The translations under genes and the position numbers were made by a program. The notes below the pieces were generated by a model, which saw only the letters and a list, made by a program, of their open reading frames with translations, searched no databases and was not told the origin of the DNA. Source: a virus. Taken from it: a stretch of DNA of 30,891 bases. Below, piece after piece: positions 7,063-13,665 of this stretch; within the stretch, counting starts at the first letter, position 1; each line of letters starts with the position of its first letter. Location of the stretch: IMG/VR virus record IMGVR_UViG_3300009537_000109, positions 1-30,891 of that record. The stretch is one strand, 5' to 3'.

Positions 7063-7280
7063 TCGACAATGTATCAAGCGGAGAGTTGGATCGGTGGCGC
7101 GGCGATCCTGTTACCGCAGCGTTGGTGCGCCAGGTGGAGCGGACCCGGCTCGCACTGTCAAGGGAGTTGGCAAATGCTGCAATCGACAGTCCGCTCGATC
7201 GGGTTAGGTACGTGCGCGGTCAGTTAGAAGGGATCAGGTTGGTAAGCACGTTGATTAATACGAAGGGATCGGACGAGTGA
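7059..7280 (+). CDS. Small helical protein between portal and GroES-like gene
   Basis: This is a 73-residue, GTG-started protein overlapping the portal stop by four bases and the next gene's GTG by four. It is predicted almost entirely helical: TAALVRQVERTRLALSRELA and RVRYVRGQLEGIRLVSTLI would make a helical hairpin. Similar tiny helical proteins often sit between portal and scaffold genes of podoviruses, and their function is unknown. Tight coupling to the portal suggests a head-assembly role. Confidence 0.75.
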   Translation: MIDNVSSGELDRWRGDPVTAALVRQVERTRLALSRELANAAIDSPLDRVRYVRGQLEGIRLVSTLINTKGSDE

Positions 7281-7825
7281 ATAAGACTTCAAACGCATGG
7301 GATCGCCCGGGTACCGGCGCGCAATTTGATTACATGCTGCCGAGTGAACGCGCGGCGATGACACCGCTCCTGGCGCATCGGATTGCCCAGTTTGGGATTT
7401 CCTTACCAAAGACACGCCCGGTTTTTGATCGGATTTTCGTCTATCCGCTAGAGGGTAAGGAGGAGACTGAAACCTTCGAGGGCACTAGTATCGTCAAGCC
7501 CACGAAGTCTAAAGACCTCTATAGCGCGAGCAAGGGCATCTTGGTCAAGGCTGGCCTCGGAGCACTGGATATCCTCTGGAGCCACGGCATCGAGATTGGA
7601 CATATCGTGCTAGTCGCAAGGCTGTCTCCATGGGAGCGGAAGTACGAGGGGAAAAAGAGCATTCACAAGGTGCAGGTGCTACGGGCTTCCGAGGTCGTGG
7701 GTTCCGATGACTTGGAAGACGACGTTATCGACGGGGCGATTAAATTTGAATTTAACGAAGACATGCGACTCGCCATTGCCGATCGCGAACGCATCGATCC
7801 AGAAGAAACCGACGAGGGGATTTAA
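7277..7825 (+). CDS. GroES-like (Cpn10-type) protein in head module
   Basis: This is a 182-residue, GTG-started protein. Residues about 49-145 follow the GroES order: DRIFVYPLE (51-59, cf. DRVIV), TSIVKP (70-75, cf. GGIVLP), KGILVKAG (86-93, cf. GEVLAVG), a GIEIGHIVLVA strand (104-114, cf. VGDIVIF), and KVQVLRASEVVGSDD (131-145, cf. EVLIMSESDILA). A helical N-terminal extension of about 47 residues and an acidic tail are not part of GroES. Phage co-chaperonins such as T4 gp31 help fold the capsid protein, and the position just before the scaffold suits that role. The assignment is from pattern only; a GroES-like beta-barrel used structurally is the alternative. Confidence 0.55.
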   Translation: MNKTSNAWDRPGTGAQFDYMLPSERAAMTPLLAHRIAQFGISLPKTRPVFDRIFVYPLEGKEETETFEGTSIVKPTKSKDLYSASKGILVKAGLGALDILWSHGIEIGHIVLVARLSPWERKYEGKKSIHKVQVLRASEVVGSDDLEDDVIDGAIKFEFNEDMRLAIADRERIDPEETDEGI

Positions 7826-7837
7826 AAAGGAGCCACC

Positions 7838-8722
7838 ATGCCAGCCGCAGCCGAAGAAGAGATTCAAGAGAAAGACGAATCCGTTAAATCGCCCGCCGAA
7901 TCGACCGGCCTGCAGGTCGATCTAAGCGAAGATGAAGACGAGACAGTTGATGGTGAAAACAATGCGCCTGCTTCCGGCGGTGAATCGAAAAAGGGACGAC
8001 GGCAGAGCTTCCGCAAGCTGCGTGACACGCTAGAGGGCGAGCGAACAGCACGGGCATCGCTGGAGCGTGAAATAGCCGAGCTGCGTGGGCGAGTTGACGG
8101 CATCCGCAGCCAGGTGCCTGCGCCGGTTCAACAAGCTCAGGAAACCGATCCGATAGATCAGGAGATTGACGGCCTCTGGGATCAGCAGCAGTTTATCCTG
8201 GGCCAGCTTCGCGCCGAGGGTATTCCCGACGCCCATGCAAATCGCCTGCAGGAACAGTGGAGAAAGCTAGACCGCAAGCGTCGAACACTGGAAATTAAAC
8301 AGGCGGTAGGTGGCGAGATTCAGCAGCCACCAAGCCAGCAGGATTATGAAAACCGCATGCTGGCAGCGGAGTTTCCCGAGGTATTCGGCGATTCTATCAG
8401 GCTGCAAGAGGCGAAGACCGAGCTAATGAAGCTCGTGCGTCAGGGTAAGCCGCTCAACATCATTACAGCTCGCGCGGCGGCACAGGCCGTGCAGGGACGC
8501 TATGTGCGGAAACCCGCGCCGCTGTCCGACTCTGACAGAGCCAAGCATGCGTCTGTGTCGGGCAGGGCCGGGGCGCAGGGTAGCGGAGACAAGTTCACGC
8601 CAAGCTCTGGCCAACTGAGGACAGCGCGTGCATTTACCTCGCACCTGGAGGGTATTTCAGACGAGGAGCGAGTGCGCATCTGGGCGAAGAAGGTCGGAAA
8701 AAAGAATAACCTGATCGGGTAA
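7838..8722 (+). CDS. Scaffolding-like protein
   Basis: This 294-residue protein starts at ATG 7838 behind AAAAAGGAG. The N-terminus is strongly acidic (LSEDEDETVDGE). A long charged coiled coil spans about residues 50-90 (LRDTLEGERTARASLEREIA), more helices follow, and the C-terminus is basic (ERVRIWAKKVGKKNNLIG). Acidic start, central coiled coil and a small basic C-terminal helix are the plan of podovirus scaffolds, whose C-terminus binds the capsid shell. Its location between portal and major capsid protein agrees. It is followed by an unusual 184-bp intergenic region. Confidence 0.75.
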   Translation: MPAAAEEEIQEKDESVKSPAESTGLQVDLSEDEDETVDGENNAPASGGESKKGRRQSFRKLRDTLEGERTARASLEREIAELRGRVDGIRSQVPAPVQQAQETDPIDQEIDGLWDQQQFILGQLRAEGIPDAHANRLQEQWRKLDRKRRTLEIKQAVGGEIQQPPSQQDYENRMLAAEFPEVFGDSIRLQEAKTELMKLVRQGKPLNIITARAAAQAVQGRYVRKPAPLSDSDRAKHASVSGRAGAQGSGDKFTPSSGQLRTARAFTSHLEGISDEERVRIWAKKVGKKNNLIG

Positions 8723-8723
8723 T

Positions 8724-8744
8724 GTCATACTTCTAGTATTGACA
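8724..8744. repeat. Imperfect hairpin after scaffold gene with embedded TTGACA
   Basis: TGTCATACT and AGTATTGACA pair as an imperfect stem two bases after the scaffold stop. There is no following T-run, so a classical terminator is unlikely. TTGACA at 8739-8744 matches a -35, but no acceptable -10 sits 16-18 bases on. Confidence 0.35.
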
Positions 8745-8776
8745 TCATTGGCATTTGTAGTGACAAGATAAAACAT

Positions 8777-8868
8777 CGCCCCGGTGAGGGCGTCTCCGCT
8801 ACTACGGTAGGTCCGGAGAGAATTCACCGGCCACCTCGCCCCGCTGTGTACGCCTTATAGTGCGCGGG
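8777..8868 (+). ncRNA. Candidate structured RNA in the scaffold/head gene gap
   Basis: The following can pair: CCGGTGA (8781-8787) with TCACCGG (8824-8830), TCTCCG (8793-8798) with CGGAGA (8814-8819), and CTAC (8799-8802) with GTAG (8807-8810) around a TACG tetraloop closed by C-G. GGGCG (8788-8792) can pair with CGCCC downstream (8837-8841, making a pseudoknot) or with the identical CGCCC upstream (8777-8781, a competing hairpin). CCCGC (8840-8844) can also pair with GCGGG (8864-8868). The rest of the 8723-8906 gap holds no open frame that I can support, and GGAG at 8895 serves the next gene. Type and function are unknown. Confidence 0.45.
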
Positions 8869-8906
8869 CTCGGGTCAAACCAGGCGGAATCAACGGAGTT
8901 CTGCTG

Positions 8907-9335
8907 ATGGCGCGTAAACGCGTTGATCCGAAGTCTACGGCGGCCGATGGGCGACGTAACTATGAGGGCGTTAAAAACGCCGACCCGACCCGCGAATACA
9001 TCTGGGCGAACCCTAATGATGAGATGACGGGCGTTCCGTCATACGAGGGGCGCGGATTCGAGATCGAGCTACGGCGACCGGATGGTCCCGTCGCCGCGAT
9101 TGGTAAGACCCCTGGAGAGGGGCAGCCGATTATGTCTCTTGGCCAGGTGTTGATGTCGCGTCCTCGCGAAGAGGCGGATATTGAGCATCAGGCGGGTCAG
9201 TTGCTTGCTGATGCACTGGACAGACGAATTTTGAAAGATGGCAACATCGAGGATGGGCTGAGAGGCCAGGGCTTTCGGCTGGGCGTCGACCAGCGGGAAA
9301 CGAGTAAACCATTTGTGGAACTTGAAGGAGTGTAA
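8907..9335 (+). CDS. Conserved-looking phage head protein of unknown role
   Basis: This 142-residue protein starts at ATG 8907, with GGAG 8 bases upstream. It has a basic N-terminus (MARKRVDPKS), then EYIWANPNDEMTGVPSYEGR, a strand pair and a helical C-terminal part (REEADIEHQAGQLLADALDR). The WANPNDEMTGV...YEGRGFE segment looks like small phage proteins found between scaffold and capsid genes, which link residues of the pre-capsid locus. I infer only that it is a structural or assembly protein. The next gene starts two bases after its stop. Confidence 0.7.
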   Translation: MARKRVDPKSTAADGRRNYEGVKNADPTREYIWANPNDEMTGVPSYEGRGFEIELRRPDGPVAAIGKTPGEGQPIMSLGQVLMSRPREEADIEHQAGQLLADALDRRILKDGNIEDGLRGQGFRLGVDQRETSKPFVELEGV

Positions 9336-9955: not shown

Positions 9956-10861
9956 ATGAGTACGGTAACTACATCGATTGCGTTTTCGACCCTAAAGGCG
10001 ACCTTGGACGAGATCGTCACCGACGACAGCGACGGCTACGAGAAAAAGGCCGTCTACAAAAAGTATATGAAGGTCGAGGGCATGGAAGACAACTATGTCG
10101 ACGATCTGTCGAATGGCGGCCCGGGCCTCGCGACGGAAAAATCAGAGGGCCAGGCTCTCGACGTTTTGAGCCTGTCGAACGGATATCAGACTCGTTACAC
10201 CGCTCGAAAATTCGGCCTCATCATGGGAATCACCGAAGAGCTGGATGACGACGGGAAATATAACGATAAATATATCGATGCTTCCCGGCGAATGAAACGG
10301 GCGCTATTCAAAACTATGGACGTTGACTGCGCCCAAATCTTCAACCGTGCGGCTAACGCTGCATATGTCGGCGGCGACGGGCTGTCACTGGCAAACTCAG
10401 CCCACACCATCCCAGGTGGAGGCACGTTTTCCAACACGCTTGCGACGGCGTTTTCTCCGTCCCGCGCTGCCGTGATCGTGATGACCCAGAACATCATGCT
10501 GCTACCAGGCTGGGATGGCGTTACTGAGGGATACATGCCAACGGCGGTTATTCACCCAGTGTCGCAGTGGGGCGCATGGAAGGGCATCCTCGGGAGCGAC
10601 AAGGTTCCCGAGTCTGGCAATAACGAGATGAACGTTGCTGCTGACATGAACCTCAAGCAATGCCCGGTGCCGTTCTGGAGCGCCAGCACGACTAACTGGG
10701 GGATGCTTACAGACGCGGCCCGCCTTAAGCTGAAGGTCCGCAAGAAGCCCAAGAGCCGCACCTGGTATGACGAGCCTACCGAGGTTATTTATCACGGAAC
10801 GAGCTCCCGGTGGGCGCGCGGCTGGAGCGATCCACGGGCTTACTATCACTCTAACGCCTAA
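9956..10861 (+). CDS. Major capsid protein (HK97-fold candidate)
   Basis: This 301-residue protein follows the scaffold and decoration genes and has a strong AAGGAG before ATG 9956. An N-terminal helical arm (TLKATLDEIVTDDSDGYEKK) is followed by an acidic extended loop region, a long helix (YIDASRRMKRALFKTMDVDC), a GDGLSLANSAHTIPGG turn common in capsid proteins, and a C-terminal beta/alpha domain ending WSDPRAYYHSN. The DGLSLAN-HP/T pattern is typical of HK97-like capsid proteins. The length is on the small side for podoviruses. Confidence 0.85.
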   Translation: MSTVTTSIAFSTLKATLDEIVTDDSDGYEKKAVYKKYMKVEGMEDNYVDDLSNGGPGLATEKSEGQALDVLSLSNGYQTRYTARKFGLIMGITEELDDDGKYNDKYIDASRRMKRALFKTMDVDCAQIFNRAANAAYVGGDGLSLANSAHTIPGGGTFSNTLATAFSPSRAAVIVMTQNIMLLPGWDGVTEGYMPTAVIHPVSQWGAWKGILGSDKVPESGNNEMNVAADMNLKQCPVPFWSASTTNWGMLTDAARLKLKVRKKPKSRTWYDEPTEVIYHGTSSRWARGWSDPRAYYHSNA

Positions 10862-10877
10862 CGGGAGGGACTGACCA

Positions 10878-11822
10878 ATGTACGGTACTTTCAACTTCCC
10901 GCACTTGCCGCACCAGGCATACACGGCCGGGGTTCGCCTTGGGCCGATGACAGTGGTTCCCGGTGGGGCGAATGTTCACTATCTGCGTTCAACCGGAGCT
11001 GCTGACTTCGATCCGCCGGAACTGGCGGGCCGCATTCATACAACTCTCAATGCGGCGTGTGGCCAGTGCCGCTCGGGGCGTGGTGACACCATCATCGCAT
11101 TGGAAGGACACGCCGAGAACATCGCCAGTGCTGATCAGATATCTAATCTCGTCGCCGGCACTCAAATTATTGGGCGCGGATATGGGACCATGCGACCTAC
11201 GTTCACATGGACGACGGCAACATCTACGTTTCTGCTCGATGTGGCCAACACGTCGATCGAGAACTGCGTGTTGAACATGGATCCTGGGACCGGAACGACA
11301 AATGTAGCGGCTCCGATCACGATCTCGGCCGCCGGCTGCCGGATTATCGGCAACACGATCCGAATGGGAACCGATTCAAACAGCAAGGTCACCATTGGGA
11401 TCACGACCACCGCCGGTGCTGATGATTGCGAGATTTCAGGCAATCATATTTACGGAGCGACGGCGGCCGAGGCGACTACGTTTATTGAGCTTGTCGGGGC
11501 CGATCGTCTCAAGATGATTGGTAACTACATCGCCGGAGCTACGTCCTCGACTGGCGTTGGAATTGTTCGGCACGCCAATACGGCCAGTCTGGACATTTTC
11601 TTGGCATTCAACACGTATATTAATCGCAAGGCATCGTCGACGTGCGCCGTGACAGGGCTTGCAGCCGTGAGTGGTGTAAGCATCCGGGAAAACTTCCATT
11701 ACCTGGACGACTCATCAAAGACAATGTGGCTCACCTCGCCCGGGATCATGGCGTTTTTCGAGGCGTTTGTTGTGAATCTCGCGGGCGAAAACGCGGTAAT
11801 TGCGACCACCGTTTCGACCTAA
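10878..11822 (+). CDS. Beta-helix-like virion protein, paralogue 1
   Basis: This is a 314-residue protein, ATG 10878 behind GGGAGGG. After about 55 residues, short alternating strands with Asn/Gly turns (FLLDVANTSIENCVLNMDPG, AGCRIIGNTIRMG, CEISGNHIYG, KMIGNYIAG, LAFNTYINR) indicate a right-handed parallel beta-helix. It shares long colinear similarity with the next gene (AENIASADQISNLVAGT against AENVASADQMSNLVAGT) and the same C-terminus in Val-Ser-Thr. Its location right after the capsid gene suggests a capsid-surface fibre or decoration spike, possibly binding host or environmental polysaccharide. An enzymatic role cannot be excluded. Confidence 0.7.
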   Translation: MYGTFNFPHLPHQAYTAGVRLGPMTVVPGGANVHYLRSTGAADFDPPELAGRIHTTLNAACGQCRSGRGDTIIALEGHAENIASADQISNLVAGTQIIGRGYGTMRPTFTWTTATSTFLLDVANTSIENCVLNMDPGTGTTNVAAPITISAAGCRIIGNTIRMGTDSNSKVTIGITTTAGADDCEISGNHIYGATAAEATTFIELVGADRLKMIGNYIAGATSSTGVGIVRHANTASLDIFLAFNTYINRKASSTCAVTGLAAVSGVSIRENFHYLDDSSKTMWLTSPGIMAFFEAFVVNLAGENAVIATTVST

Positions 11823-11834
11823 GGAGCTGGACAC

Positions 11835-12776
11835 ATGGCATACGATGAGCTCTCAACGATATCGGCCTCGGACGCCGACGGCATACAGACCGATTTCGGC
11901 ACACTGCTAAACCCAGCGGGTCGAGCGTTCTATGTTCACCACACGGCGGGTGGTCGACCCCATGATCCCCCTGGAATCAGGAACCGTACATTTAGCACTC
12001 TTAACGATGCACTTAGACAATGCGCATCGGGCAATGGTGACACGGTGTTCCTGCTGCCGGGTTATGCGGAGAACGTCGCCAGCGCTGATCAGATGTCAAA
12101 CCTGGTCGCAGGGACAAATATCGTCGGCCTTGGAGCAGGGAACAATCGAGGAACGCTTACATGGACCTCGGCAACATCCTCGTTTTTGTTGGACGTGGCG
12201 AATGTCTCGATAAAAAACGTGATCCTGAATATGGACCCAGGGACTGGGACGACCACGGTAGCCGCGCCGATGACCATATCGGCGGCGGGGTGTTCGCTGG
12301 TCAACTGCAAGGTACGGACCGCGACCGACGCCAACAGTCTAACTACGGTGCCGTTGCTACTTACCGATGCGGCAGACGACTGCTCTCTTGTTAATTGTCG
12401 CTTTTTTGGGGCAACTGCCGGGGAGTGTACGACTCAGGTGGACATTGCCGGTGCCGATAATCTGCTGATCCAGGATTGCGTTTTTCACGCGGCGACCTCT
12501 TTGACTACGGTTGGCACCGTGCGCTTCAAGGCAACGGCGGCGACTAATATTTGTCTTCGTCGAAACGTATACATCAACAAGAAAGCCAGCAGCGCATGCG
12601 CCGTTACGGGCGTGGCCAGCGTGACCGGCTCATCGTATGACGAGCTGTTCTGCTACCTGGACAACACATCGACTACAATGTGGGTTACAAGCCCCGGGTT
12701 GATGCACTTCTTTAACCCGAGGACCAGCAACCTCGCGGGCGAGGCGGGCATGTTGTCGACGGTTGTTTCAACCTAA
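11835..12776 (+). CDS. Beta-helix-like virion protein, paralogue 2
   Basis: This is a 313-residue protein, ATG 11835 behind AAGGAG, and a clear tandem paralogue of the preceding gene. Conserved blocks include NPAGR/YVHH at the start, the AENVASADQ block, LLDVANVSIKNVILNMDPGT, MTISAAGCSLVNC, a Tyr-Ile-Asn/Lys-Ala-Ser-Ser block and MWVTSPGLMHFF. The N-terminal 30 residues differ from paralogue 1, so attachment specificity may differ. The beta-helix inference is from the strand-turn repeat. A stable hairpin follows the gene. Confidence 0.7.
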   Translation: MAYDELSTISASDADGIQTDFGTLLNPAGRAFYVHHTAGGRPHDPPGIRNRTFSTLNDALRQCASGNGDTVFLLPGYAENVASADQMSNLVAGTNIVGLGAGNNRGTLTWTSATSSFLLDVANVSIKNVILNMDPGTGTTTVAAPMTISAAGCSLVNCKVRTATDANSLTTVPLLLTDAADDCSLVNCRFFGATAGECTTQVDIAGADNLLIQDCVFHAATSLTTVGTVRFKATAATNICLRRNVYINKKASSACAVTGVASVTGSSYDELFCYLDNTSTTMWVTSPGLMHFFNPRTSNLAGEAGMLSTVVST

Positions 12777-12831: not shown

Positions 12832-13665
12832 TTGGCGTCGCCGCAAATTTACCAAACAGGGATCGGCGGGACGACCGGCGTAGCCCTAACTACCAGTGCC
12901 CCGCTCTATATGAGCGGAAACATTTGGTATGTTTCCTCAACCGCAACAGGGGCGGGCGATGCAGCGGCGCCTCGCGGGAAAGAGCGCATCCGACCGCTGG
13001 CCACACTGGCACAGGCGATCACTAACGCAGCGGCCAATGACATCATCGTCTGCCTTGCGTCGCACGCCGAAACGCTAACCGCGACTCAGGCCATTTCCAC
13101 CGCTGGGCTCACAATCATCGGAGAGGGCTCCGGTTCTTCGCGGCCTAACTTCACACGCAATATCGCCGGCAATGGTCAGCTTTTCGATATCACCGGGGCT
13201 AAGGTGGTGCTCAATAACCTGTATTTCCCCGCCACCGTGACCACGGCGTCAACCGGGGCGATGGTGCGAACTGCCGGAGCGGGTACAGAGATCATAAATT
13301 GCTATTTTAATGCATCCACGCTGGACGACGGCGCAAGCGTCGAGACGATCACAGGTGCGAGCAGCGTTCGGATAATCAACACCACGTTCATCTCCACCGC
13401 AACGCTTCCCAGCGATCAGCCTGGGAGTGCAATTACCATCACCAATGCACTAACCGATCTGGAGATGGATACGGTCACCATTAGCGGCGGAACCAGCGGA
13501 TGGGCTAATCCTTATGCATTTGTGGGCACGGGGGCAGTAACCCGCCTCCGAGGATCGCAGGTCCACCTGCTGCTTGACTCTGACGTAATCTTGGCGACGG
13601 GTACCACCGGATACATCAACCTAGGAAACACCAGTGGCTCGGCGCGGGTGGTGTGGACGGCATGA
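12832..13665 (+). CDS. Beta-helix-like virion protein, diverged paralogue 3
   Basis: The TTG start at 12832 follows GGAGG at normal distance, giving 277 residues. The layout repeats that of the two genes before it: a short N-terminal part with WYVSSTATGAGDAAAPRG, then NDIIVCLASHAETLTATQAI (matching GDTIIALEGHAENIASADQ of paralogue 1), TIIGEGSGSSRPNFT (matching IIGRGYGTMRPTFT) and further strand-turn units (ITGAKVVLNNLYFP, TEIINCYFN, VRIINTTFI). The similarity is remote but in order. It is probably a third surface beta-helix protein. It ends in an ATGA overlap with the zinc-ribbon gene. Confidence 0.65.
   Translation: MASPQIYQTGIGGTTGVALTTSAPLYMSGNIWYVSSTATGAGDAAAPRGKERIRPLATLAQAITNAAANDIIVCLASHAETLTATQAISTAGLTIIGEGSGSSRPNFTRNIAGNGQLFDITGAKVVLNNLYFPATVTTASTGAMVRTAGAGTEIINCYFNASTLDDGASVETITGASSVRIINTTFISTATLPSDQPGSAITITNALTDLEMDTVTISGGTSGWANPYAFVGTGAVTRLRGSQVHLLLDSDVILATGTTGYINLGNTSGSARVVWTA

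Follow-up and report, generated by a model that had tools for sequence, protein, structure and literature searches.

The 184-bp gap upstream of the capsid genes of an environmental virus probably specifies a folded 5′ leader that acts in cis on the capsid-gene transcription unit and would gate translation of the head genes. This reading draws on position, fold and promoter together, and by sequence comparison the leader RNA is best read as an undescribed, lineage-restricted RNA family. In the mechanism that we propose, a promoter at the end of a scaffold-like gene, supplemented by read-through from upstream, would make the leader RNA. The transcript would then fold into a P1/P3 element, a P4 hairpin, a pseudoknot in which the P4 loop pairs with bases immediately 5′ of the Shine-Dalgarno (SD) sequence, and a short hairpin presenting the SD. 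Folding of the 3′ part against the SD would limit or time ribosome loading on the first gene, which encodes a 142-aa protein, and by coupling the decoration and capsid genes downstream would also be gated.

Genomic context of the gap

The window analyzed here, a virus record from IMG/VR, spans 30,891 bases. An earlier note on this DNA had pointed to a gene-free 184-bp gap between scaffold and head genes, and the ORF list confirmed it: positions 8723–8906 are flanked by ORFs at 7838–8722 and 8907–9335 and contain no plus-strand ORF of at least 20 aa. The upstream plus-strand CDS (7838–8722, 294 aa) returned no Pfam or PHROGs match, and its scaffold-like function is presumed from its place in relatives, where a GroES-like gene lies on one side and head genes on the other. 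Further upstream, the ORF at 7277–7825 occupies the place of the GroES-like co-chaperonin annotated in distant named relatives and itself has no Pfam match.

The first gene past the leader (8907–9335, plus strand) encodes a 142-aa head-block protein that is conserved in relatives and has no known domain in Pfam. Its AlphaFold model has a confident core (mean pLDDT 76) that resembles only uncharacterized phage proteins and nothing convincing in the PDB, so the fold search gives no hint of RNA binding. A decoration-like ORF follows, and then the major capsid protein (9956–10861, plus strand; Pfam PF25209 Phage_capsid_4, E 3.9e-7). The neighboring ORFs past the capsid gene (10878–11822, 11835–12776 and 12832–13665) have the look of tandem paralogues, judging by eye from shared motifs; two of the three were searched in Pfam and gave no match.

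Relatives were gathered from IMG/VR by searches with the capsid, 142-aa and decoration-like proteins. The GTDB genome collections yielded no relatives and hence no clue to a host, and the capsid matches in named phages reach about 30% identity at most. Of the IMG/VR relatives checked, most keep the gene order and carry a gap of roughly 95–420 bp at the same place, giving the conserved position upstream of one gene start that is expected of a cis-acting leader. Eight distant named relatives (Caulobacter RW, Alcaligenes QDWS535, HTVC023P, DSL-LC04, Pag-Yong1 and three Manatee Spring genomes) have only 1–19 bp there on inspection. The gap is thus not a spacer kept by all and, being present in IMG/VR relatives but reduced to a few bases in named ones, the structured gap is by this comparison a trait of one clade.

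A covarying fold upstream of the head genes

All four stems claimed in the earlier note were found in the window. In P1, CCGGTGA (8781–8787) pairs with TCACCGG (8824–8830); in P2, GGGCG (8788–8792) is complementary to CGCCC (8837–8841); and P3 consists of an outer helix (TCTCCG, 8793–8798, with CGGAGA, 8814–8819) and an inner helix (CTAC, 8799–8802, with GTAG, 8807–8810) closed by a TACG loop. These and all leader strands described below lie on the plus strand. Dinucleotide shuffling produced a contiguous stem triple of this kind, with at least 18 nt pairing downstream, once in 1500 trials, and 2 of 2680 windows taken from the same genome contain one. For its composition, the whole gap has an unremarkable folding energy (z −1.05); stability by itself is therefore no proof, and the test had to come from the relatives.

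Laying the gaps of the window's own group side by side (type I, only 11–13 distinct sequences, with several helix tests using hand-set boundaries) revealed a common order. The 5′ half runs through P1, a P3 hairpin with a 3-nt G-N-C bulge, P1′, a GGCC-type strand F and UUG; the 3′ half continues with P4a, a lone C, P4b, a loop of the form (A)CGCCY, P4b′, GNGC, P4a′, strand P, RGGCG and the SD. Strand P pairs with F, and RGGCG pairs with the P4 loop.

P3 (8793–8819, with a 3-nt GUC bulge at 8811–8813) keeps its architecture, G-N-C bulge included, in relatives and clearly covaries by alignment. Across seven manually aligned sequences, 95% of cells are paired, and 12 cells are double-changed versus 3.4 on shuffling (0/2000). 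P1, whose 5′ strand is position-consistent around a GGUGA core, shows moderate covariation. Its swap test was not significant with a wider region, run first (p 0.16), and significant with a restricted one (p 0.0019), and we therefore grade it as suggestive. P1 is possibly shortened to 5 bp, since the F/P helix also uses its two final G residues. Because the spacing of P1 and P3 varied too much for the aligner, P3 was counted on the manual alignment instead of in a full-length covariance model.

The P4 hairpin (8839–8868), which the earlier note had missed, covaries strongly among the aligned relatives. P4a (8839–8841/8866–8868) and P4b (8843–8847/8857–8861) are separated by an internal loop of C8842 versus GCGC at 8862–8865. 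In an 11-sequence alignment, 98% of P4 cells are paired, seven of nine pairs changed on both sides, and the covariation score of 0.76 compares with 0.29 for shuffled and at most 0.16 for slid controls. Nearest-neighbor folding of the window by itself gives P4b a probability of 2–3% and P4a about 50% and prefers another P4b register; the predicted P4b is therefore based on comparison, not folding energy. In either P4b register the CGCCU loop remains available to the pseudoknot.

Strand F (GGCC, 8829–8832) overlaps the end of P1 and pairs with GGUC at 8873–8876, with double changes in relatives at three of the four pairs (shuffle p 0.001, swap p 0.10). In the pseudoknot, CGCCU of the P4 loop (8851–8855) pairs with AGGCG (8882–8886), directly 5′ of the SD hairpin, and a U-A pair is replaced by C-G in relatives. 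Taken together, P4, F/P and the pseudoknot have double changes at 11 of 18 pairs. The pseudoknot is in register in 7 of 11 rows, and the remaining four pair when shifted by 1–5 nt; because it lay outside the covariance model, its agreement was not fitted. Its helices score better than shuffled downstream sequence does (p 0.002); swapping among relatives shows no such advantage (p 0.15), a result of the strands being conserved.

A covariance model of F/P and P4, built from eight sequences, had a single strong match in the window (8829–8888, 60.9 bits). It recovered the held-out L002 with 34 bits (E 3e-4), and gave weaker matches, at the same gene position, in L033 (21.7 bits) and L049 (21.1 bits). 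Exceptions within type I are L008, with a short P4 variant only, and L035, which reached only 7 bits.

These comparisons recast the earlier proposal. Its central idea, a structured RNA with a pseudoknot that is plausibly a regulator, is supported, and the compensatory changes that it suggested seeking in relatives are present in P3, P4 and F/P with the pseudoknot. The particular GGGCG/CGCCC pseudoknot is not: equivalent positions in seven relatives show weak or no pairing (four pairs in L008, the others weak), and 8837–8841 includes the bases that make the 5′ side of the conserved P4a. Missing in relatives and occupying a strand of a conserved hairpin, this pairing is probably incidental. Of the two exclusive folds envisaged, the second CGCCC copy does exist (8777–8781), but its pairing was rejected: in a nested ensemble, which cannot represent a pseudoknot, P1 and P3 have probabilities near 1 while GGGCG/CGCCC and the upstream alternative are both near 0. 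P1 and P3 stand, within an element that is larger than the note had drawn it and reaches the start codon at 8907.

The Shine-Dalgarno region and a candidate promoter

A small hairpin, P5 (GAAU/GUUC, 8887–8901), holds the SD (GGAG, 8895–8898) in its loop and first pair, with ensemble pair probabilities of 0.62–0.86 and a swap test p of 0.0025 obtained with hand-set boundaries. Across type I the pseudoknot strand lies about 0–12 nt from the SD, except in L007, which has an extra stretch before the SD; no single helix sequesters the SD consistently in this group (p 0.035). Structure overlapping or abutting the SD takes the form of P5 and the pseudoknot in the window and most type I members, and of an SD-pairing helix in the second leader type described below. 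We infer that the leader fold controls translation, and our guess is that it responds either to a head protein of the phage or to how many ribosomes are free.

At the 5′ end of the gap, a perfect TTGACA (8739–8744, plus strand) is a candidate −35 element of an internal promoter. With CAAGAT (8764–8769, plus strand), a weak candidate −10 element at a spacer of 19, it forms the best promoter-like pair in the window gap, with p 0.13 when taken alone. TTGAC is enriched in relatives, occurring at most 75 nt past the scaffold stop in 7 of 13 type I members (0.99 expected) and 11 of 18 type II members (1.15 expected), and combined promoter scores gave p values of 2e-5 and 8e-8, respectively. Comparison among relatives thus demonstrates promoter-like enrichment along with the conserved position, the P3 and P4 hairpins and the pseudoknot, all as predicted from aligned sequences.

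An imperfect inverted repeat, TGTCATACTTCTAGTATTGACA (8723–8744), overlaps the −35 element and forms a stem in the MFE fold. Similar repeats overlap TTGAC in L049 (AGCCTGTCA...TGACAGGCT), L086 (ACTTGACAGTCAAGT), L121 (TTGACAGTCAA) and L109 (GACAACC...GGTTGTC). By their position, the inverted repeats over TTGAC are perhaps an operator.

A second leader type in more distant relatives

More distant members (L057, L070, L074, L083, L093, L094, L107, L121, L040, L032 and others) carry a different covarying leader at the same place, mostly 115–120 nt long to the start codon (L107, 2394–2511; L074, 1528–1645; L121, 2292–2409; and others). In this type II leader, swap tests gave p below 1/50000 for hairpin A, 4e-5 for pairing of a hairpin loop with a strand further on, and below 1/50000 for an H-type pseudoknot, all with hand-set segment boundaries that favor native pairs. 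A helix between the SD region and an upstream strand spans 8–11 bp in most members, with 0 of 20000 swaps as good in fixed windows. Type II thus combines two pseudoknots, an SD-sequestering helix, a conserved GCCA hairpin loop and two CUGA motifs.

The two types share their locus, phage family, a similar length (about 118 nt for type II versus 126 nt from P1 for the window), an upstream promoter and a pseudoknot before the SD. Type II differs in having other hairpins, the GCCA loop, a loop-to-strand pseudoknot and a long helix pairing with the SD. Type II is not a published family. On these sequence features, type II is a stronger riboswitch-like candidate than the window's own element.

Comparison with known RNAs and alternative explanations

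At the gathering threshold, Rfam returned no matches in the window and 32 related loci, and permissive searches of three gaps gave chance-level matches only. A description of the element was not found in the open-licence papers searched; it could have been described elsewhere. The rpsO (S15) leader is a cis-acting pseudoknot operator at a translation start and is under autogenous control. Ribosomal-protein leaders of the rpsO type resemble the window leader in being cis-acting pseudoknots at the translation start, autogenous control being a feature of rpsO; the window leader matches no Rfam leader.

The closest functional analogy is the gene 32 operator of phages T4 and T2, an mRNA-leader pseudoknot that controls translation (PMC3014915). 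A 2010 review considered T4 gene 32 perhaps the only viral pseudoknot in translational autoregulation (PMC3014915). Both are phage-gene leader pseudoknots upstream of a ribosome-binding site, with translational control established for gene 32 and proposed here. In the T4 operator, a simple pseudoknot located 67 nt upstream is bound by gp32, and an A+U-rich stretch without structure follows it (PMC3014915). In contrast, the fold of the window leader is GC-rich and larger, includes P4 and a bulged hairpin that covaries, adjoins the SD and precedes head genes.

A different role for the same fold, as an mRNA processing or stability element, is a possible though rather unlikely alternative. The structure would serve as a 5′ stabilizer or a nuclease site, separating a scaffold message that decays quickly from a capsid message that persists. 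An mRNA can be protected by a compact, pseudoknotted 5′ end, and such a role agrees with all comparative data; the fold also sits precisely at the border of the scaffold-like and capsid genes, whose products the phage requires in unequal quantities. Taken alone, however, it leaves unexplained why the pseudoknot and SD-pairing helices are placed against the SD in both leader types.

The promoter-like element directly upstream would also suit a free-standing or packaging-related RNA acting in trans. We regard this as very unlikely, because the fold extends into the next gene's SD, its position is tied to one gene start in relatives, and no terminator was found 3′ of the fold on the same strand. 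That the gap is only a promoter or operator, with the RNA fold a by-product of GC-rich sequence, would fit the ordinary folding energy and the promoter enrichment; this highly improbable reading is already disfavored by covariation, as compensatory changes in the alignments are far above shuffled and slid controls.

An HDV-like self-cleaving ribozyme is barely credible: the stems first noted do have the nested double-pseudoknot order P1-P2-P3-P3′-P1′-P2′ in the window, and minimal HDV-like ribozymes occur in phages (PMC10879173), but P2 is missing in seven relatives, P3′ is not adjacent to P1′, the first base of P1 is C8781, not the G1 found at the cleavage site of HDV-like ribozymes (PMC10879173), and Rfam gave no HDV match at the gathering threshold or at E≤10. 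The likeness to theta (minimal HDV-like) phage ribozymes (PMC10879173) is confined to the order of those three stems; P2 conservation, junctions, the first P1 base and P3 geometry all misfit. The segment 8831–8836 (CCACCU) does contain a C where a J4/2 catalytic cytosine would be sought, with no family alignment as anchor. The self-cleaving and packaging options raised earlier are thus without evidence, there being no Rfam ribozyme match and the defining HDV-like features being absent. A hammerhead was likewise rejected: the GUC bulge is present, but by eye no CUGANGA core lies opposite.

Implications for head-gene expression

The amounts of scaffold, minor head and capsid protein that tailed phages must make differ widely. 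To our knowledge, how the ratio of head proteins is set is known in few phages. With a covarying pseudoknotted leader at the scaffold/capsid boundary, RNA-level control of head stoichiometry becomes directly testable, and Rfam has no entry for a structured element that recurs throughout a clade of environmental phages. Beyond the translation-gating leader favored here, we entertain, as a speculative and rather doubtful extension, that a large uncultured clade of tailed phages has evolved, at one and the same site, two RNA solutions of differing structure in a new class of multi-pseudoknot leaders that sense head assembly and switch capsid-gene translation. Sensing might occur, for example, by binding of the leader to a free head protein. 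If true, dsDNA phages would have an RNA switch for shell stoichiometry.

One subgroup has a further gap of about 180–235 bp that separates the decoration-like and capsid genes (L074, about 2807–2988; also L081, L083, L084, L087, L091 and L096). This second gap before the capsid gene is possibly another leader or a promoter.
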